Shown here: positions 51,150 to 61,641 of the stretch, piece after piece | How the letters are laid out: each line of letters opens with the position of its first letter | Numbering within the stretch: position 1 is the first letter of the stretch | Source: Lentisphaerae bacterium GWF2_38_69 | GTDB taxonomy: Bacteria; Verrucomicrobiota; Lentisphaeria; Victivallales; GWF2-38-69 | NCBI GenBank assembly: GCA_001803205.1 | Contig: MHBE01000055.1 | Coordinates: 1 to 61,641, forward strand | DNA: 61,641 nucleotides | Direction: 5' to 3' | The notes under the pieces: model-generated | Seen by the model: the letters and a program-made list of their open reading frames with translations, nothing else | Told to the model about the DNA's origin: nothing | Databases searched by the model: none | Position numbers and translations under genes: made by a program

Positions 51150-51510
51150 CAACTCTCCCTTTTAGTTATTTATATTGCGTTAAATGGCATTATCTTAATA
51201 AACTTACCATACCCTGCTTGTCCCAGGGATTCTACCTTATCCTTATTCCGCTTAGCTGCTTTTTCCCATCTTGAGAAAACCATAATGGTATACCTATGAC
51301 TTCTTTTCCTTCGTAAGAATTGTAATCTACATTCATATGGAGTGTCCTATAACTAAGCGTGTATTTCTGTTTGAAATTTTAATTTGCCCTTTTTGTTTCT
51401 TAAACATTTCAATAAATTATTGCAAGCATTTAGCATTTCTTTATAATTCTTTTGAAATTGAATTCCATAAAAGTTTAACTAATGCCTGTTTCATTAAAAG
51501 GTAATTTTTG
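51150..51510. other. Intergenic gap between mmsA and the pilus-like operon
   Basis: About 360 bases. The right end holds the promoter at 51420-51447. The rest has no supported gene; a 34-codon minus-strand frame (starting near 51337, MNVDYNSYEGKEV) has no recognisable homology. No RNA gene seen. Confidence 0.4.
51420..51447 (+). promoter_or_regulatory. Near-consensus promoter for the pilus-like operon
   Basis: TTGCAA, 16-base spacer, perfect TATAAT, 63 bases before the ATG at 51511. AAAAGG at 51496-51501 is the ribosome binding site. Confidence 0.6.
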
Positions 51511-53283
51511 ATGTCAAAAAAGGATTTTGTTCTTACAGTAGATGTCGGAGCATGCAGCCTCAAAGCAGCAGAATTCTTCCAAAAAAGCAATAAATTGGAA
51601 CTTATTGATTTTTCCTGCGTTGAGTATTCATCAGAGATTACTGATGACAACAGACATTCTGAAATATACAAAACTTTCACTGAAATTCTTCAAACTCACA
51701 AATTTAAAGCAAGAAGGCTATACCTTTCCATATCCGGCCAGGAAGTGTTCACAAGATTTGCCAAAATTCCAACAGCTTCAACCGTCAAGGATCAGAAACT
51801 CCAGCAGCTTGTTAATTACGAAGCCAGACAGAACATACCTTATCCCATAGAAGAAGTGACATGGGATTATCAGCTTATTAATATCGCTGATTCCAGTAGT
51901 GAAGAAATGAGCATAATGTATGCTGTAATAAAGAACGATATTATATTGAGCATTGTCAGTGTTTTTGAAAGATGCGGATTTGAAACAGTTCTTGTAGGAA
52001 CGAGCCCTACAGCTACATACAATTGTATGTGTGCTATGAAAATTGATGAAATGGAACCTTCTGCGCTTATAAATATCGGGGGAAGATGTACCAATATAAT
52101 TTTTGTTGGTAAAGGGAAATTTTTCGCAAGATCAATTCCGCTTGGCGGGTATTCAATTACACAGCAGATAAGCAAAGATTTGAACATACCTTTTAACGAG
52201 GCCGAAAATCTGAAAAGAACAACAGGCTATGTATCATTGGGAAGTAATTATCAGGAAGGAGATCAACAAAGCATAGCAATATCCACAAGCATCAGAAATA
52301 TAATGATCAGGATTCACGGCGAAATAAATCGGTCAATAAATATTTATAAATCACAGCACCCGGATAATAATTTTGCGAAAGTTTATTTAGCCGGGGGCAG
52401 TTCTGTAATAAAATATACCGATTCTTTTCTCGAAGAAAAACTTAAACTTCCTATCGAATATCTTAATCCTGCTAACCTGGTATCTATTCATGATTCAGTT
52501 AATAAAGAGGAACTGGCTTCAGTTGTACATATTTTTCCGGAACTCGTCGGGCTTGCTGTAAATTCAGTCACATCCTGTCCAATAGAAATTTCACTTGTCC
52601 CTGAATTCATTAGGAACAAGCATAATTTAAGACGAAAAACCCCTTATTTTTATGCTATTTCAGTTACATTTATTATGTGTCTGGCAATTTTTTATTGGGG
52701 AATGCGCACTCAGCGTGAGCTTATTGATGATCTTATTATAACTACTACGGATCAAACCAGGAAAATACAGGAAAGCGTAACCAATGTAACAGTACTCACT
52801 AAAGAACTCGATACGCAAAAAAAAATATATAATTCTGTTTTCCAGGCTTTAGAAGAGAGGAATTCATGGTATGAAATTCTTGATTCTATTCAAAAAGCTT
52901 TACCGGATAATACTTGGCTGGTGCTTATCGAACCTTCCGGAAAACCTAATATTACTACGGACAAAGAACCTCTGCCTGAAACCGGAATCAAATCTATTTT
53001 TGGCAAGCCTAAAACCCGTTATCCTCAGGCCGTTGTTACTTCTGATTCCACTTCAACTGCTATTGAGTGGATAAGAGTAAAAGCTCATACGCTTGTTTTA
53101 TTTAAAAGCTTAAAAACGACTGAACCTGAAAAATTTAAAGAAAATCTTCTTAAAATGGCCACTTTCTCTGCAAATGCCGAAGATATAGTCATAGTTGACT
53201 ATAAAACTCCATTAAAAGAATCAGATAACATAAGTTCATTTGATATGATAATAAAATTAAGAAAACCTATAAAAGAACCATGA
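51511..53283 (+). CDS. PilM-PilN fusion, type IV pilus-like assembly platform protein
   Basis: 590 residues. The first ~365 form a PilM actin-like ATPase: TVDVGACSLKAAEF, ALINIGGRCTNIIFV, the ARSIPLGGYSITQQIS block and VYLAGGSSVIKY. A membrane helix (~378-396) follows, then a PilN-like periplasmic part with a coiled coil (QTRKIQESVTNVTVLTKELD) and a ferredoxin-like fold region (WYEILDSIQKALPDNTWLV). PilM and PilN are separate in typical type IV pilus operons; GspL of type II secretion has the same fused plan. It organises the inner-membrane ring. The next gene overlaps by four bases. Confidence 0.85.
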   Translation: MSKKDFVLTVDVGACSLKAAEFFQKSNKLELIDFSCVEYSSEITDDNRHSEIYKTFTEILQTHKFKARRLYLSISGQEVFTRFAKIPTASTVKDQKLQQLVNYEARQNIPYPIEEVTWDYQLINIADSSSEEMSIMYAVIKNDIILSIVSVFERCGFETVLVGTSPTATYNCMCAMKIDEMEPSALINIGGRCTNIIFVGKGKFFARSIPLGGYSITQQISKDLNIPFNEAENLKRTTGYVSLGSNYQEGDQQSIAISTSIRNIMIRIHGEINRSINIYKSQHPDNNFAKVYLAGGSSVIKYTDSFLEEKLKLPIEYLNPANLVSIHDSVNKEELASVVHIFPELVGLAVNSVTSCPIEISLVPEFIRNKHNLRRKTPYFYAISVTFIMCLAIFYWGMRTQRELIDDLIITTTDQTRKIQESVTNVTVLTKELDTQKKIYNSVFQALEERNSWYEILDSIQKALPDNTWLVLIEPSGKPNITTDKEPLPETGIKSIFGKPKTRYPQAVVTSDSTSTAIEWIRVKAHTLVLFKSLKTTEPEKFKENLLKMATFSANAEDIVIVDYKTPLKESDNISSFDMIIKLRKPIKEP

Positions 53284-54515
53284 AGCTTAAGTTTAAATTT
53301 AATATAGACTTCATTAAGAGAAATCCATTAATCAGTTCGATTATCGGATTTGCCATTCTTATCTCTATTCTCCTGATTTATATGATATACAGCGAAAATA
53401 ATACGAGGCTTGAATCCGGACAGGGTCTTGAGAGTTTAAAACAAAAAATAGTTATCTTAAACTCTACAACACCATATCCTTCCGAGCAAAACATAAAGTT
53501 GTTAAAAAATGATATTCATTTATTAAAAGTAAATACATATTTTTTTGAAGATGTATTCGGAAATGTATATGCCAAGCCTCTTTTAGCTTTCATAAAACAG
53601 CTTAACAAGCATGATATTAAAATTTATGAATCTTCTTTAGCTGAACTTGAAAAAAATGACACTGCTGAGTCAGAAAAGAAACAGGAAGAAATAAAAGCTA
53701 AAATAGAAGCATTAAAAAATATATCTGATGATAATTTGGTCTATTCCTTTATCAATTCATGGAAATCTTTTATCGAAGATGAGAAGAAAAACAAAGTAGA
53801 GCTTTCTATCAGTGAAATTTTTAATAATTTCAGTAAAAATAAAAATTATACTTCTGAAGACTTTGATGAAGCCAGAAAAGCTTTTCTTATAGAAATCCAA
53901 AAACTTACTTTAGAGCCATTAAATATTGAAATAATAAACGATTACATTCTCGCTGCTTTGGGTATCCCTTTGGATTTCTCAAGAATAAGATGCAAAAATA
54001 CCGTATCGGACATCGAAGTTGAATTAAATCGAATACTTGTAGCAAATAATGTAATGGTTACCGGGGGTAAACTTACTCTTTTTACGGAATTTTCTTCTGT
54101 TCCTAATGATGATGAAATTCCTTATATAATAAATTATTGCAGGTTTCTTGAGGATTTATTTCAAAGAGCTGCTAAATCAAATATTGAATCCATTGAGTAT
54201 TATAAAAAAATTAATGGTCTTAAAGGAACTGAAGACGCTAATTTTCTCATATTTAAATATCAGATAGATGTGATGACATCTATGGAAACTTTGAGAATAT
54301 TCCTAAATAATCTTCAGGAATCATACAAAGAAAACAGAATATACATAATAAAATCGCTAAAAATTTCAACTGTTCAAGACAGTGCTAACAACCTTCCGCC
54401 TTTTGATTCTAAAGCGACTTTACCACAGCAAATTAAAATACTCATTGGAACTTCTGACATGCTCAAAGCTTCAATCATACTTGATTATGTCATTTTCAAA
54501 AAGAAGGTTTTTTAA
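53280..54515 (+). CDS. Inner-membrane pilus-like system protein (PilO / Amuc_1100-like position)
   Basis: 411 residues. One membrane helix (~16-37), then a long Lys/Glu-rich periplasmic part with coiled-coil character (~40-200) and a globular C-terminal region (~270-405) where YQIDVMTSMETLRIFLNNL and an Ile/Lys-rich strand recall PilO-type ferredoxin-like domains. Position between the PilM/PilN fusion and a PilP-like gene also fits PilO. In Akkermansia the equivalent slot is Amuc_1100; homology is by position and plan, not proven. Confidence 0.65.
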   Translation: MKLKFKFNIDFIKRNPLISSIIGFAILISILLIYMIYSENNTRLESGQGLESLKQKIVILNSTTPYPSEQNIKLLKNDIHLLKVNTYFFEDVFGNVYAKPLLAFIKQLNKHDIKIYESSLAELEKNDTAESEKKQEEIKAKIEALKNISDDNLVYSFINSWKSFIEDEKKNKVELSISEIFNNFSKNKNYTSEDFDEARKAFLIEIQKLTLEPLNIEIINDYILAALGIPLDFSRIRCKNTVSDIEVELNRILVANNVMVTGGKLTLFTEFSSVPNDDEIPYIINYCRFLEDLFQRAAKSNIESIEYYKKINGLKGTEDANFLIFKYQIDVMTSMETLRIFLNNLQESYKENRIYIIKSLKISTVQDSANNLPPFDSKATLPQQIKILIGTSDMLKASIILDYVIFKKKVF

Positions 54516-54518
54516 CGA

Positions 54519-55694
54519 ATGAAAACAACCTTTGTCAAAAAGAACTGGGAAAAGATTGTACTTATATTAATCTTTGCCCTTCTCCTTTTGGCCCTTATCT
54601 GGCTGGTTAAACTTTTTCAGGAAACTCAGGAAACAAAAGCAACAGGTCTGACATATATTGTAAACAGGGCTCCCTACAAAACACTTCAGCCTTCTTTCTA
54701 TAATTTTTCAGCTGAACTTCAAAAAAGCATTCTATGGGTGACATCTACAAAGCGCGATACGAATCTTAATGATGAATTTTATATTGTCTCTTATACAGAT
54801 TTTATGAAACCCTTCAAGATAACAAGGTCTAATGCTCCCAAAGCAGACGGCAAGCTGATTCCATACGATTATTATAAGCTCGGTTTCTGCCCCATAACAA
54901 AAGAAAAACTTCAGATTCCAGATGCCGATGTGATTGAAAGAACTTCAGATTCCGATGCTGATACCATTCCTGATCAAATAGAGAAACAATACGGCCTAAA
55001 TCCGGCAAATCCTGCTGACGCCTATTATGACCTTGATAAAGACTCGTTTACAAACCTCCAAGATTATCAGTATAATCCTAACGGCATTGATAATCCCAAA
55101 ATACATCCCCCTATTATAAGAAGACTTATCCTTTCCGGCATATCAAAGGCTAAAGTCCCTTTTATAATTAAGAATATTGTTAAATCAGGCAAAAATAAAA
55201 AATTATGGAATATACAGATTAACTTTGATGATCCTTCAATTTCTCCAAGTACAAAATTCCTAAAAATAGGCTCAACCGTTGAATTGCCAACTCTTTCTTA
55301 TAAAATTACCGATATTATAGAAAAAACATATGAAAAGCTTGACCCTAAACTTGGCACCCTAATTACATATGATAATTCTATTGTCGTACTTCAAACCACA
55401 AAAGGGGAAAAGATTCAAGCTCAAGTTGATAAAACAATTTATGAAAAAGATAATCTTGTAATAGTTAAAGACATTTTTTCCACTGAAGAATATAAAATCA
55501 GGATTAACAACACAGTTACTCTTGGAAATAGTTATATAGGCATAGAGGAATATATTCTTTCTGATATAATTATTGATGATACTTCCGCAAATGAGTCGCT
55601 GGTTTTTGAAAGAGACGGCAAGACCTATAGCGTAAAAAATACTACAGACTATATGAAACCTCTTTCATCTTTAAATGTCCAAAAAAAGGATTGA
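54519..55694 (+). CDS. Inner-membrane pilus-like protein with calcium-binding insert (PilP/GspC or Amuc_1099-like)
   Basis: 391 residues. One membrane helix (~12-31). Residues ~144-184 hold a thrombospondin-type-3/dockerin-like Ca motif: DSDADTIPDQIEKQYGLNP then a second DLDKDSFTNLQDYQ loop. Two strand-rich domains follow (~210-290 and ~300-380), the place where PilP or GspC would contact the secretin. The stop lies ten bases before the preferred secretin start. The motif resembles extracellular Ca-stabilised repeats, so the protein is periplasmic. Assignment to Amuc_1099-like proteins is an inference from layout. Confidence 0.68.
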   Translation: MKTTFVKKNWEKIVLILIFALLLLALIWLVKLFQETQETKATGLTYIVNRAPYKTLQPSFYNFSAELQKSILWVTSTKRDTNLNDEFYIVSYTDFMKPFKITRSNAPKADGKLIPYDYYKLGFCPITKEKLQIPDADVIERTSDSDADTIPDQIEKQYGLNPANPADAYYDLDKDSFTNLQDYQYNPNGIDNPKIHPPIIRRLILSGISKAKVPFIIKNIVKSGKNKKLWNIQINFDDPSISPSTKFLKIGSTVELPTLSYKITDIIEKTYEKLDPKLGTLITYDNSIVVLQTTKGEKIQAQVDKTIYEKDNLVIVKDIFSTEEYKIRINNTVTLGNSYIGIEEYILSDIIIDDTSANESLVFERDGKTYSVKNTTDYMKPLSSLNVQKKD

Positions 55695-55704
55695 TTTACA
55701 TATA

Positions 55705-58152
55705 ATGAAATCGCAATTCAGTAAAAGAATGAGTCAGTTTATTTTATTTGCTATTCTTTTTCCATTTATTCAAATAACTTCATTTTCGGCAGATTCTTCA
55801 AATCCATCAGTTCAAAATAATACGATATCAGATTCAATTGCATCCGAAAGGGAAACTGCTGTATCTTCAGAATCAGATAAAATAAGAAAAAATATCGCCG
55901 CATTCGTATCTGCCGGAAAGTTTCAGGATGCTGAAAAGGAATACTCAAAACTAACCGAGCTCTACGAAACTCTTGGAGATACCCGTTATGCGCAGATAAA
56001 ACGCTCTCTTCTCCTAAGTGATAAGAATGTGTTTTACAAGAAGTGGGCAGATTATCTGGAAGATCAGGCAGCTAATGCTTACCTGAATAAAGAGTATGAC
56101 AAGTCGATAAAACTTTCAGAAGAATCCATTTCAGCTATAAAGAAAATCAATCCAAAGCAAATTACTCAAAATGGACGAACCCCCTTTTCCTTGTTTGAAC
56201 CAACTAGAATACGCAAACCTGACACATCAACGCAAAATAATCTGATTCAAGATTCAAAATACGAACAGCTCAACAATCAGTTTGAAAATGAGACAGATAT
56301 GGATAAAGCTCTCCCTGTCTACAAACATCGGATTATGGACTTGGACATATATATTACTGAAGCTCAAGTTTACATGAAAAACAGAGATTATGAAAAGGCC
56401 AAAGAATCACTGGAAAAAGCTCTTATCCTTGATCCTTACAATTACAAAGCCATGACAATGCTAAAAACACTTTATTCGAATCTTCTTAGAGCAGGAAAAG
56501 CTAGATCACTCAATGAAGCTTACGAAGCAATTGCCGAAACTCAATGGTTGAATAATGAAGCGATCCTTCCAAATGTAGCGACAGAAAATGAAGACTTAAA
56601 AGTAATTGAGGCTGAATCAGATTTAATGGGAAAAATGAAGGAAAAACTCGAAACTCTGATCATTCCTAAAATTGACTTTGAAGAAGCGTCTGTTTCATCG
56701 GTTATCACATATTTAAGCAGAGAGAGTAAAATTGCTGATCCTGATGGGAAAGGAATAAATATAATCTTAAGACTGTCAAATACCCAGCAAGAACCTAAAC
56801 CTGTCACTCTCCAGCTTGACGATCTGCCTATTGGAGAAATTATCCGATATGTATGCTTGTATTCAGGTTTGAAATACAGAATTGAAGACGATGCAGTAAT
56901 AGTAGGAGACGATTCAATATACAAAATGGATACTAAGTTTTTCAACATAAAATCAGGATTAATCAACTCAATTGTTTCTAATCTGGATATTAATGATAAA
57001 GCTGTCAGCACTGATGATAAAAATTTCTATGATACTTCTTCAATGCTTACGAAATCTGTGGTAGGAGAGCAGAAAGTTATTTCAGCTGAACTTCAAAGTT
57101 ATTTTCTGCAAAGAGGTTTGCCTTTTCCTCCTGAATCCAGCATTGCCTGGGACAGCAAAACAGGGATGCTGATAATTACCAATACTCCTGACAATCTCAG
57201 AATAGCAGAAAGCCTTATAAAAGAAATCGATGTGAATATACCATTGGTGCTTATAGAAGCTAAATTTATCGAAATAAATCAGAATGAACTTGAAGAAATT
57301 GCCTTTAAGTGGAGTTTACAATACACTCCAGGCAAAACAGATATATCTTCTAATCCTACAACTTTGGATAACCCTAATGCAAATCAATCAATTATACAGC
57401 ATTACGAGAATCCAGGCGGCACGAGTCAGGCATATACTGAATATGGAGCCCTCATTAATGATTTAAATATCAGCTACAATGACTTTAATCTTCGGTTCTG
57501 GATGTACGCTTTGGAACAAAGCGAGACAAAGGAATTACTTTCTTCCCCTAAGGTCATTACCAAAAGCGGCTCCCAGGCTCTCATACGGATGGTTACCCAG
57601 AAATATTACCCTAACAGCTGGACAGAACCTGAAGTAACTGCAGAAGCTGCCGATGCAGGGTCTACTGTGGATGTAACCTTTTCAGGTCCTGAATTTACTG
57701 ATCCTACGGATCTGGGAATCATACTCTATGCCACTCCTACAGTAAGTCCAAATAACCATACAATCCTTCTTGACCTGAAGCCGCAGGTAATTGATTTTGT
57801 TGGCTGGGATGACTATGCATATAATATAACCAAACAATCAGGAACTGATACTACTCTTTATAATGCCCCTGTCAAAATGCCTCAAATATCTCACAGAGAC
57901 CTTGTTACAAAAGTAAAAGTTTATGACGGAGAGACAATTGTTCTGGGAGGGACTATTTCCGAACACGCTGTCTATGTCGACGATTCAATGCCTTTTTTAT
58001 CTGAAATCCCTATTGCGGGAAGACTTTTCCGTTCTAAATATCAGCAAATAGAAAAAGTGAATTTATTGGTGTTCGTCAGCGCAAGACTTATTAACCCTGA
58101 TGGTACTCCCTATAGAGAACAAACCAATAAATTCTTCGATTTCGAAAGGTAA
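55705..58152 (+). CDS. TPR-containing secretin, copy 1 (PilQ/GspD superfamily)
   Basis: 815 residues from ATG 55705; an ATG at 55675 would overlap the previous gene and displace the signal peptide. Signal peptide ~1-30 ends near SFSA. TPR-like helices lie at ~55-110 and ~205-280. A secretin N-domain precedes (~315-420), then N-domain VLIEAKFIEINQNELEEIAF and the C-terminal beta-barrel domain (~590-805) with VYDGETIVLGGTISE and PFLSEIPIAGRLFRSK. Forms the outer-membrane gate of a pilus or type II secretion-like machine. Followed by a paralogue. Confidence 0.9.
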   Translation: MKSQFSKRMSQFILFAILFPFIQITSFSADSSNPSVQNNTISDSIASERETAVSSESDKIRKNIAAFVSAGKFQDAEKEYSKLTELYETLGDTRYAQIKRSLLLSDKNVFYKKWADYLEDQAANAYLNKEYDKSIKLSEESISAIKKINPKQITQNGRTPFSLFEPTRIRKPDTSTQNNLIQDSKYEQLNNQFENETDMDKALPVYKHRIMDLDIYITEAQVYMKNRDYEKAKESLEKALILDPYNYKAMTMLKTLYSNLLRAGKARSLNEAYEAIAETQWLNNEAILPNVATENEDLKVIEAESDLMGKMKEKLETLIIPKIDFEEASVSSVITYLSRESKIADPDGKGINIILRLSNTQQEPKPVTLQLDDLPIGEIIRYVCLYSGLKYRIEDDAVIVGDDSIYKMDTKFFNIKSGLINSIVSNLDINDKAVSTDDKNFYDTSSMLTKSVVGEQKVISAELQSYFLQRGLPFPPESSIAWDSKTGMLIITNTPDNLRIAESLIKEIDVNIPLVLIEAKFIEINQNELEEIAFKWSLQYTPGKTDISSNPTTLDNPNANQSIIQHYENPGGTSQAYTEYGALINDLNISYNDFNLRFWMYALEQSETKELLSSPKVITKSGSQALIRMVTQKYYPNSWTEPEVTAEAADAGSTVDVTFSGPEFTDPTDLGIILYATPTVSPNNHTILLDLKPQVIDFVGWDDYAYNITKQSGTDTTLYNAPVKMPQISHRDLVTKVKVYDGETIVLGGTISEHAVYVDDSMPFLSEIPIAGRLFRSKYQQIEKVNLLVFVSARLINPDGTPYREQTNKFFDFER

Positions 58153-58221
58153 ATGACTATATATTAAAAATAAATAATAGTTTCACAAATGGATTTAAAA
58201 TTGAAATAGAGATGAACCATA

Positions 58222-60555
58222 ATGAAATATAAGCTTCTTTCAGTTGTTATTTTTCTTTTACTTGTTTTTGATTATTTTTCCGCTGAAGAGTCTTCTCCAA
58301 ACGAAATAGCAAATCAGGCAGCTGTCATTCAGCAGGCAAAAAAACAGGATACAGATACTTTATTGCAAGAAGCTAATAGCGCATATATTGACAAAGATTA
58401 TCCAAGAGCTAAAGATTTATATCTTAAGGCTATTTCCAATATTTCATCTATATCTGGCTCCAATACTAACACTGCTCAAAAGAAAATATCAAGTATCACA
58501 GATTCTCTTTCAAATGTATATACTGCATGGTCACAGGAATTAATTGAAAAGGCAAAAAAAGACTCTTCTCCTGATCAGATTGATAATTCCATAGAATTAT
58601 GCAAAGAGGCAAAAGAAATGAATCCAAAATGCTCTGCACTTGCGGACAGACTTATTGCTTATTATACAGAAAATAAAAAAATTATATCTTATAAGGAGTC
58701 TGTTTCTACAGATAAGGTGCTTCCTGACAATAAAGAAAAAGTTCACAATATTGATGTCTTATATGAACAGGGAAAGCTTCTTTATAGCAATAAATTATAT
58801 AACCAGGCAAAAGATAAGTTCCAGGAACTGCTTTTTATCGATCCATATAATACCAATGCAATTGAATATATAAGGCAGATTAACCTTAAAATAGCATCAG
58901 CGGGAGATTACAGGACAGAAATAACCGCCACTGAGAGATCTGCTGAAATTGAATGGGAAAAGCTTTCACCAATTATGTCAAGAACTCTTAGCGGAGAAAG
59001 AGTTGATCTTATAGAAGCAGAAACTTCCGGAAGAAAAGGGTCTTTTGATTTGCTGAATGAAAAGCTTAAATCAATCATAATAAAAAATATCTCTTTCGAA
59101 CAAGTTCCTATAGATACCGCGATAGCTTTTCTTAAGAGTGAAAGCCAGAAAGAAGATCCGACAGGAAAAGGAGTGAATTTTTTCCTGGATATAAAGCCTA
59201 TAGCGCCGCCACCCCAGGAGCAAAATACAACGCAGCAGTCCAGTAACGCAAATGCTGAAGGATGGGAAGAAGGAAACAATACTTCTTTACAGGAAGAAAG
59301 TATCGCAAACCAATATCTGGTAACAATGGTACTGGAAAATATCCCCCTTGGCAAAGCCATTGATTACATTTGCAAAGCCTCAGGACTCAATTATAAAATA
59401 GGCAGATACGCTGTAGAAATTTACTCTTCCGGTATCCATGATGATAATTTAGATACAGAAGTTATACCTGTCGAAAGAGAAGTTTTCCTTGATTTTGCAG
59501 GCGATAACAAAAGCGCGGATATGAAACAGTTTTTCAAAGAAAGAGGCGTAACTTTTTCTGATGATGCCACATGTGTTTACGACCCTAAAATAAGCAGACT
59601 GATAGTCAGGAACAATCCTTCGGAAATTGAGAAAATTAATAATATTATTTTCAATCTAGAGAAAACTTTACCGCAGGTTTCTATTGCAGCAAAGTTTGTA
59701 GAAATGAGACAAAAGGATTTCCAGGAACTGGGATTTGAGTGGCAATTCAATAAAACAGGTGGAGATGTAAATGTGCAAAATCCTAATCAGATAAACAGGT
59801 TCGCTGATGATGTTAATCCGTCCCTTCTTGATCCTCCGAAACCGGATAAAGAGTTTGGCCTTCTTTACAATACCGGAGGCTATGAAATTGGCGGCACCAT
59901 GCACGCTCTTGAACAAAATCAGAGAACAGAAGTATTGTCAGCTCCTAGAGTTACTACAATAAGTGGACAAAAAGCTACTATCAGATTAATAACTGACAGA
60001 TATTTTCCTATCCAGTGGACAGAGCCTAGTATAGATGAAACAACTGGAACAGTTGGAGCCAATATAACAGTCATCACCCCAACTACGCCAGAAGTAACTA
60101 TGGACGATCCCACTCCTATAGGAATAAGACTGGATGTAACGCCGCAGGTCAGCTCAGACAATTATACAATAGACATGGTGCTCGAACCGCAGGTACAGGA
60201 TTTCGTTGGCTGGACTGAATACGAATATACATCAACAGATACCAGATACGACAGTGATGTGTTAGGAACAGTGATGATGCCTGAAATTACCGCGAGAAAT
60301 ATACAAACTCAGGTAAGGGTTTATGACGGAGAGACTGTTATTCTCGGAGGCGTTTACAAAGATAGCACTCAAATTGTAAACGATAGTGTTCCGATTTTTG
60401 GAGACATTCCACTTGTAGGCCGTTTATTCCAGTCACAAATAGAGGTTCCTGACAAAACGAATCTTCTGATCTTCACAACTGTTCAGCTTATCAGACCTGA
60501 CGGAACTCTGCTGCGCCCTGCAAGGAATGCTGGCTTGCCTACTTTCCGCGATTAA
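58222..60555 (+). CDS. TPR-containing secretin, copy 2 (PilQ/GspD superfamily)
   Basis: 777 residues, paralogue of the preceding gene with the same order: signal peptide (~1-20), TPR-like region (~45-220), secretin N domain, VSIAAKFVEMRQKDFQELGF and secretin core (~555-765) with VYDGETVILGGVYKD and PIFGDIPLVGRLFQSQ. It differs by a Pro/Gln/Asn-rich insert near residues 325-355. Seventy bases after copy 1; the pair ends at the palindromic terminator. Whether they form mixed or separate pores is unknown. Confidence 0.9.
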   Translation: MKYKLLSVVIFLLLVFDYFSAEESSPNEIANQAAVIQQAKKQDTDTLLQEANSAYIDKDYPRAKDLYLKAISNISSISGSNTNTAQKKISSITDSLSNVYTAWSQELIEKAKKDSSPDQIDNSIELCKEAKEMNPKCSALADRLIAYYTENKKIISYKESVSTDKVLPDNKEKVHNIDVLYEQGKLLYSNKLYNQAKDKFQELLFIDPYNTNAIEYIRQINLKIASAGDYRTEITATERSAEIEWEKLSPIMSRTLSGERVDLIEAETSGRKGSFDLLNEKLKSIIIKNISFEQVPIDTAIAFLKSESQKEDPTGKGVNFFLDIKPIAPPPQEQNTTQQSSNANAEGWEEGNNTSLQEESIANQYLVTMVLENIPLGKAIDYICKASGLNYKIGRYAVEIYSSGIHDDNLDTEVIPVEREVFLDFAGDNKSADMKQFFKERGVTFSDDATCVYDPKISRLIVRNNPSEIEKINNIIFNLEKTLPQVSIAAKFVEMRQKDFQELGFEWQFNKTGGDVNVQNPNQINRFADDVNPSLLDPPKPDKEFGLLYNTGGYEIGGTMHALEQNQRTEVLSAPRVTTISGQKATIRLITDRYFPIQWTEPSIDETTGTVGANITVITPTTPEVTMDDPTPIGIRLDVTPQVSSDNYTIDMVLEPQVQDFVGWTEYEYTSTDTRYDSDVLGTVMMPEITARNIQTQVRVYDGETVILGGVYKDSTQIVNDSVPIFGDIPLVGRLFQSQIEVPDKTNLLIFTTVQLIRPDGTLLRPARNAGLPTFRD

Positions 60556-60620
60556 CTTTCGCACTGCTATTTTATGCAAATTACGGAATGAAACTGGCTA
60601 GTAAAGCGAAAATAAGAAGA

Positions 60621-60650
60621 AAAAGGCTGCAATTGCAGCCTTTTTTATTG
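60621..60650. terminator. Symmetric bidirectional terminator
   Basis: AAAAGGCTGC and GCAGCCTTTT form a 10-bp stem around AATT, with T-runs on the right and A-runs on the left, so it can stop both the secretin operon and the minus-strand fragment at 60671. Confidence 0.9.
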
Positions 60651-60670: not shown

Positions 60671-60790
60671 TTAGCCTTTGTGTTCGAACATATCTCTGAT
60701 TTTTTTGCCTGTAACTTCAAGGATATGATCTCCTAGTGCTTTTCTCTTTGCAAGAAGGTTTGGAGCGTCGTTTTTGTCATGCTCAACCGC
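60671..60790 (-). pseudogene. C-terminal remnant of a truncated gene, family not recognised
   Basis: About 38 residues ending KKIRDMFEHKG, followed by a stop and the symmetric terminator, which is what the 3' end of a real gene looks like. Upstream (higher coordinates) the frame runs into the transposase fragment at about 60783-60790, so the gene body is cut off. I could not name the protein. The longer minus frame up to 60943 is antisense to the transposase and not real. Confidence 0.45.
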
Positions 60791-61333
60791 TGGATCCAGG
60801 AGAATGATTTCAAGTATATGATAAGGCATTTCGGACTCAATGAAATAACATCCTATCAGACTGTAGAGTATATTGATATAAGAGAGAGCTGCACTGATGA
60901 ACTCAAAATGCTTACCATGGAAAAGAAAACCCTCAATAAACATGAAAGCAAAATAGACAAAGTCATTTCAGAAAATAAGTGCAGGTTCCTGGCAGACAAG
61001 AAGGCATACCTTGATGCCGTCAAAATTACGGCAAGAAATATCTTTTATCTCTTGAGCAGAATATTCAGGCCGATCTATAATAACTACAGGAATGATCACC
61101 AGATACTCAGAGAACTTCTCAGGTCTCGCTGGACTCTGATTTCCTGCGGTTCTTTTATGAAAGCAGAACTTGATGTTACAAGAATTTTCCAGCCGGAACA
61201 GCTTAATAAAATAAATCTGTTCCTTGGCGAAATATCTGAAAACATTAACTCTTCAAAGTGTTTTGAGAAACCTATAAAGCTTGTTATCAGGAAAGTGAAA
61301 ATATCAAAAATACAGAAATTACAGATCGTTTAA
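60783..61333 (+). pseudogene. C-terminal half of a transposase, probably the same family as the left-end remnant
   Basis: About 180 residues starting abruptly at NRWIQENDFKYMIRHFGLNE, which matches the RWSQENFFKYM motif following the catalytic core in this transposase family. Later YLDAVKITARNIFYLLSRI aligns in position with DTVKMIAYRAETSMA of the left copy. The catalytic core is missing, so it is inactive. The C-terminus differs from the left copy, so it is a related but different element. The ATG at 60779 is probably fortuitous. Confidence 0.6.
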
Positions 61334-61445
61334 CTTGCGATTGGTGCAATTTTAATTTAGCCTCAAATTAGTGAGCTCTGTGGCGCCAACAAAGCCATGT
61401 CAAAAGGAATTGTTGGTATTTATATAGATATGAATATTAACATGA

Positions 61446-61641
61446 GAGCGCCAAGTTAAGCTGGTGCAAACAAGTTGGAAAAAACCCAACCTAGGTAAAG
61501 CCTAACCAGCAGCCTAGAACTGAACCTCGCATATGGCAAGGTAACAAACCATATGAAGCCGAGGGAAAGGCAGTCTGTCAGCCGCAATGCGTAAGCTCAG
61601 CGTGAAGGTATTCAGCCCCGAAATATTAATTGTTCCGAGAG
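61446..61641 (+). mobile_element. Probable group II intron, 5' part of domain I (runs off the window)
   Basis: From GAGCGCC (61446), similar to the GUGYG intron start, the sequence has conserved-looking helices and motifs: paired AAGTTGG/CCAACCT, GTAAAGCC, AGCAGCCTAGAACTG, CATATG arms around GGCAAGGTAAC, GCCGAGGGAAAGG and CTCAGCGTGAAGG. These are blocks I recall from bacterial group II introns with retron-type ORFs, which would lie beyond the right edge. The 5' boundary is uncertain; an alternative start is near 61380 (GTGGCGCC). Confidence 0.55.

Follow-up and report, generated by a model that had tools for sequence, protein, structure and literature searches.

What machine is encoded when an operon consists of a PilM-PilN fusion, a PilO-like protein, a calcium-motif membrane protein and two secretins, and nothing that could drive a filament? 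Such an operon lies in the window, the whole 61,641-nucleotide stretch analysed here, and an earlier note on this DNA raised the idea of a distinct trans-envelope machine. We conclude that the operon encodes a variant form of a subcomplex already known from type IVa pili and very probably supplies one half of such a pilus machine, namely its alignment apparatus and outer-membrane channel.

Five genes and their products

The five open reading frames, all on the + strand, span 51508-60555 of the source contig MHBE01000055.1. The genes, their domains and the signals at the boundaries are as follows.

51420-51447, + strand: candidate sigma-70 promoter (TTGCAA-16-TATAAT), 10/12 consensus matches
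51508-53283, + strand: PilM-PilN fusion, 591 residues, Amuc_1101 homologue (NF045709, TIGR01175, Pfam PilM_2)
53280-54515, + strand: PilO by predicted fold, 411 residues, Amuc_1100 homologue (profile and Foldseek matches)
54519-55694, + strand: Amuc_1099-family protein, 391 residues, possible PilP/GspC counterpart (Amuc_1099_fam)
54945-55064, + strand: TSP3-type calcium-binding motif, residues 143-182 (alignment, NF047639, Pfam TSP3_bac)
55104-55643, + strand: two tandem beta domains, residues 196-297 and 298-375 (AF2 secondary structure)
55675-58152, + strand: first secretin (PilQ-type), 825 residues, N-terminal TPR, core at 57508-58092
58222-60555, + strand: second secretin (PilQ-type), 777 residues, N-terminal TPR, core at 59905-60495
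60620-60645, strand unassigned: symmetrical hairpin resembling an intrinsic terminator, 11-pair stem and T-run, a consensus match only

Consecutive frames are spaced by -4, +3, -20 and +69 bases, and the gene order is invariant in about 100 other loci, so the operon arrangement is not the product of chance; the single transcription unit proposed in the earlier note is upheld. The promoter, which the note called strong, is an ordinary 10/12 match in an AT-rich region where such sites are common (49 promoter-type sites versus 36 +/- 6.6 in shuffled sequence). The hairpin starts 65 bases past the second secretin gene. Unrelated metabolic genes lie 5' of the operon on the opposite strand, and 60671-61641, on its 3' side, holds nothing that is clearly an intact gene; a frame of 90 residues on the minus strand there is fragment-like and has no family match.

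The first protein joins a PilM part (about 51538-52563) to a PilN-like part (about 52615-53280). The PilM part scores above the TIGR01175 cut-off (142.8 bits; cut-off 133) and matches Pfam PilM_2 at 6.3e-35, and the fusion matches NF045709 (Amuc_1101_fam) over residues 2-537 at 4.9e-117, with 392 bits, below the equivalog cut-off of 650. A transmembrane segment lies near residue 381. For the PilN part, a profile of the fusion family finds the PilN of 3jc8, the M. xanthus pilus machine, with E=0.001, and Pfam PilN is matched by 18 of 35 family members, with no such match in the window's own copy. Taken together, these matches bear out the fused PilM/PilN recognized earlier. A cytoplasmic PilM domain fused to a single-span PilN domain would make PilMN one polypeptide, as in GspL of the type II secretion system (T2SS), and this polypeptide would pair with the PilO protein. 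In the literature, the PilMN complex is taken to correspond to GspL, and PilP to the HR domain of GspC (PMC4471445). As an aside, Lentisphaerae bacterium GWF2_50_93 carries a lone second PilMN paralogue (L131) with the other pilus genes absent beside it, in a genome that also has a complete pilus locus (L126).

The 411-residue protein has no Pfam match by direct search; a profile built from an alignment of 50 relatives matches the Amuc_1100 crystal structure 6lad at 2.9e-9. Its AF2 model (pLDDT 89.8) has a transmembrane helix, a coiled coil, a helical insert and a C-terminal ferredoxin-like domain. In a Foldseek search with this model, Amuc_1100 entries fill the first ten places (2.4e-7 to 2.3e-6), followed by P. 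aeruginosa PilO 2rjz (1.9e-3, probability 1.00), the PilO of 3jc8 and P. aeruginosa PilO 5uvr. The structure comparison therefore agrees with the earlier description of a PilO-like protein, and, as judged from the predicted model, the Amuc_1100-type protein is PilO by fold in this family. This fold predicts a role in inner-membrane alignment and would recast a protein that is usually presented as belonging to a pilus or to the outer membrane.

What, then, stands in the place of PilP? The window's 391-residue copy matches Amuc_1099_fam at 7.5e-7, below the cut-off, and 38 of 40 members of its family match that model. The AF2 model (pLDDT 86.4, pTM 0.59) consists of an N-terminal transmembrane helix (residues 10-41), the TSP3-type calcium motif and two small beta domains. 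No other part of the protein is as well conserved as the motif: 88 of 91 homologues have DxDxD-type loops, Akkermansia-type proteins being among them, and Pfam TSP3_bac matches 26 of 40, with NF047639 matching too. A membrane protein with a calcium motif had been correctly read from the DNA; the thought that the motif might be a lineage-specific insert was rejected, the motif being family-wide. Just before the motif, 78 of the 91 Amuc_1099-like homologues have CxxC pairs of zinc-ribbon-like appearance, which the window's family has lost (54870-54945 and the homologues in the alignment).

The beta domains are harder to place. Foldseek against the PDB with the whole 391-residue chain returned nothing at E<=0.001, and sequence searches with each beta domain separately gave no match. 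In hhalign, beta domain 1 scores 27.0 against GspC (28 decoys reach at most 13.5) and 24.6 against domain 2 (reversed control, 9.9); one reversed-domain control scored as high as 29 on part of a secretin, so the GspC score is by itself no proof. A PilP/GspC (HR-like) role is thus suggested only, in which the calcium-motif protein would span the inner membrane and form a bridge to the secretin. The earlier note had taken a mismatch of both middle proteins to any pilus or T2SS component as grounds for abandoning its reading; those grounds are absent, since the 411-residue protein has both Amuc_1100 and PilO as structural matches, although the 391-residue protein is without a significant PDB match.

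Motor genes and a separate secretion system

Comparison with the type IVa pilus PilMNOPQ of Pseudomonas and Myxococcus reveals both likeness and departure. PilM, PilN, PilO and the secretin are homologous to those of the window, the predicted PilO fold is that of 2rjz and 3jc8, and PilB, PilC and PilT are encoded in the host genome. In contrast to the known pilus, PilM and PilN are fused here, PilO has a large helical insert, a transmembrane TSP3-repeat protein takes the place of the small lipoprotein PilP, and there are two secretins.

The host genome is a Lentisphaeria MAG of 3.12 Mb in 66 contigs, 95% complete, and as in any MAG a gene could hide in an assembly gap. The motor genes are present in the assembly: pilB-pilB-pilT-pilC stand on contig C5 (L024:6880-12711), with PilT at 457 bits, over the cut-off of 319.1, and PilB at 663.9 bits, just below the TIGR02538 cut-off of 675.65. 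A prepilin peptidase (PilD) is encoded on contig C53, and pilins are on contigs C51 and C59. The lack of ATPase, pilin and peptidase remarked on earlier is hence true of the operon and not of the genome. Five PilT-family proteins occur in the genome altogether (L024, L027, L028, L029), one of them a tandem fusion: a 732-residue protein on contig C8 (L027:5740-7938) has two PilT domains in tandem, with the canonical RQxPD box only in the second half, and several relatives have matches in open frames of 730-823 residues.

Do these scattered genes belong with the operon? In G052, a genome of the same family, Amuc_1102-PilMN-O-P-Q1-Q2-PilB1-PilB2-PilT-PilC-coaX follow one another on one strand (L095, L224). 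Compared with the C5 set, the four G052 motor proteins show identities of 59, 63, 64 and 63%, and coaX comes after pilC in both genomes. Physical linkage of core and motor was seen in this one genome, present in two collections. Most simply, a single cluster would account for both operons, that of the window being one half of it and that of C5 the other. The C5 genes would ancestrally have been part of that cluster, and their products, PilB (two paralogues), PilC and PilT, would extend and retract a pilin filament, with the secretins as its outer-membrane port. An ATPase encoded downstream at another locus (L134), first called PilB by a loose search, has PilT-like sequence features and was excluded from the PilB evidence.

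Core and motor genes also occur together in genomes across the phylum. NF045709 (Amuc_1101) matches 277 of 289 phylum genomes at E<=0.001, 19 of these matches being weak and maybe FtsA/MreB-like (hand count), which leaves a strong match in about 258 of the 289 (hand count from tables); the system is found across most of the phylum. All genomes with a strong match have a PilB-grade ATPase (E<=1.4e-146; hand count), a co-occurrence less specific than that of PilT because TIGR02538 also detects GspE. In the genomes sampled, PilT accompanies the locus in 30 of 30 cases and is found in 22 of 31 genomes without a strong match, and the 31 locus-free genomes are mutually related, so the counts are not independent. 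Among close relatives, 38 of 41 have the PilO-like gene; the named ones comprise MAGs of Lentisphaerae, Lentisphaeria and Victivallales as well as Victivallis vadensis, a cultured member (DSM 14823) in which the Amuc_1102-MN-O-P-Q1-Q2 locus is complete (L171).

One could nonetheless imagine a distinct motorless machine, a static channel or a glycan-uptake port that never assembles a pilus. The operon itself has no motor gene, a pilus does not usually come with a second secretin and a calcium-motif protein, and the literature on the MUL2 locus of Akkermansia emphasizes glycan attachment and periplasmic uptake (PMC13174399). However, the search for pilB, pilT, pilC and pilins found all of them in the genome, together with the peptidase, the motor is contiguous with the operon in G052, and among the genomes checked the locus was never found without PilB-grade or PilT genes. 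On the strength of the genome searches and the G052 cluster, we rejected the motorless machine, which we regard as very unlikely, and with it the distinct machine of the earlier note.

A different objection comes from type II secretion: might the operon be an extra GspL/M/C/D set serving a T2SS? GspL unites the functions of PilM and PilN in one chain, as does the window's fusion, GspC has a transmembrane helix and an HR domain comparable to the helix and beta domains of the 391-residue protein, and the genome does contain a T2SS. That system, however, is a separate one, and its secretin, GspE, GspF and pseudopilins are encoded not with the operon but on C59, where one upstream gene matches T2SSM_b; the operon, for its part, scores as PilM, over the model's cut-off, and as Amuc_1101. 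Only 22 of 60 relatives yielded a GspC, and the two same-family genomes did not, so most relatives that keep the operon are without it and the operon is no T2SS accessory. With a T2SS that has its own gene set and is patchy among relatives, we rejected such a role as extremely improbable. The type IVa pilus remains our reading of the operon.

Paired secretins in the host order

Both secretins foreseen in the earlier note are genuine: the first matches Pfam Secretin at 1.7e-28 and Amuc_1098_fam at 1.9e-83, and the second at 7.6e-35 and 1.3e-94, respectively. In pairwise comparison they are 28% identical. The count was limited to loci that extend by more than 9.5 kb on the downstream side; of these, 47 have two secretins, six have one and one has three. 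A secretin tree places 41 first and 41 second secretins in separate clades (SH-aLRT 96 and 99%), the first-secretin clade also taking in two sequences whose loci break off shortly behind the first secretin, and the single secretins of other orders fall elsewhere. The separate clades indicate that a single duplication took place close to the base of the host order (Victivallales), an old tandem event by which the pair would have arisen, with both copies retained since. No fully covered locus of this order has lost either secretin, and the two stand in the same order throughout. What is new here is that tandem secretins from a single basal duplication are order-wide and that both have been kept.

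Why keep both? A second secretin sitting in tandem and derived by duplication might be a redundant or decaying copy with no function of its own. The single duplication is ancient, however, with two well-supported clades of 41, conserved secretin-core positions are retained in both copies alongside copy-specific differences, and neither copy is lost from any fully covered locus of the order; we consider redundancy unlikely. Both secretins are probably needed in the host order, whether joined in a mixed ring, forming two separate ports or acting at different stages, and the first two would be the leading options for the role of the second secretin. We tentatively raise the possibility, to which we would give somewhat less than even odds, that an order-wide type IV pilus requires two distinct coexisting PilQ proteins, descended from one duplication, in a hetero-oligomeric or two-port machine. 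Two Lentisphaeria groups outside the host order, one with three secretins (L109) and one with two (L181), have undergone independent duplications at this same locus. If the proposal is true, these duplications point to the same need arising again.

Amuc_1102 and the Akkermansia locus

The resemblance to Amuc_1098-Amuc_1102 of Akkermansia muciniphila (MUL2 = amuc_1099-1102), on which the earlier note remarked, extends to the same PilMN-O-P-Q order and to homology of every protein from Amuc_1098 to Amuc_1101, and stops at Amuc_1102, whose gene is missing here. Amuc_1101 itself is a PilM whose C-terminal extension is as long as that of the window's fusion. Unlike Akkermansia, with its one secretin, the host has two; the window's proteins all score under the NCBIfam equivalog cut-offs; and the calcium-motif protein has two calcium loops, whereas Akkermansia-type proteins keep about one. 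The Akkermansia locus has been described as pili-like (PMC5332112), and the name PilQ was given in A. muciniphila, with Lentisphaera homologues noted (PMC4960237).

An Amuc_1102 homologue, matching 7dsz at 1.4e-51 and also NF042424, lies upstream of PilMN in 90 of 98 loci. In Akkermansiaceae this protein is MUL2A, regarded as an archaeal-pilin-like attachment factor (PMC13174399). A profile search that detected Amuc_1102 in five other genomes, used as positive controls, came up empty at E<=1 in G028, G040 and the window's own genome; the window's contig covers the expected position, and a few further loci have no Amuc_1102 at the expected place. Also new, then, is that the host genome and one relative have lost Amuc_1102, the putative adhesive subunit, and have retained the core, so the core can persist without it.

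In our literature search, to which most subscription papers were inaccessible, we found no paper equating Amuc_1100 with PilO and none on tandem PilQ secretin pairs, and we claim no priority for either. Most work on Amuc_1098-1102 has been done in Akkermansia, where the locus is treated as pilus-like and linked to immunomodulation or mucin utilization; its likely place is in a phylum-wide type IVa pilus, as the PilMNOPQ core. The lineages in which Amuc_1102 has been lost, several times over and with the core kept, are natural knock-outs for testing which component it is that glycans bind to. The order-wide paired secretins raise a testable question of their own: why should one pilus have two outer-membrane ports?
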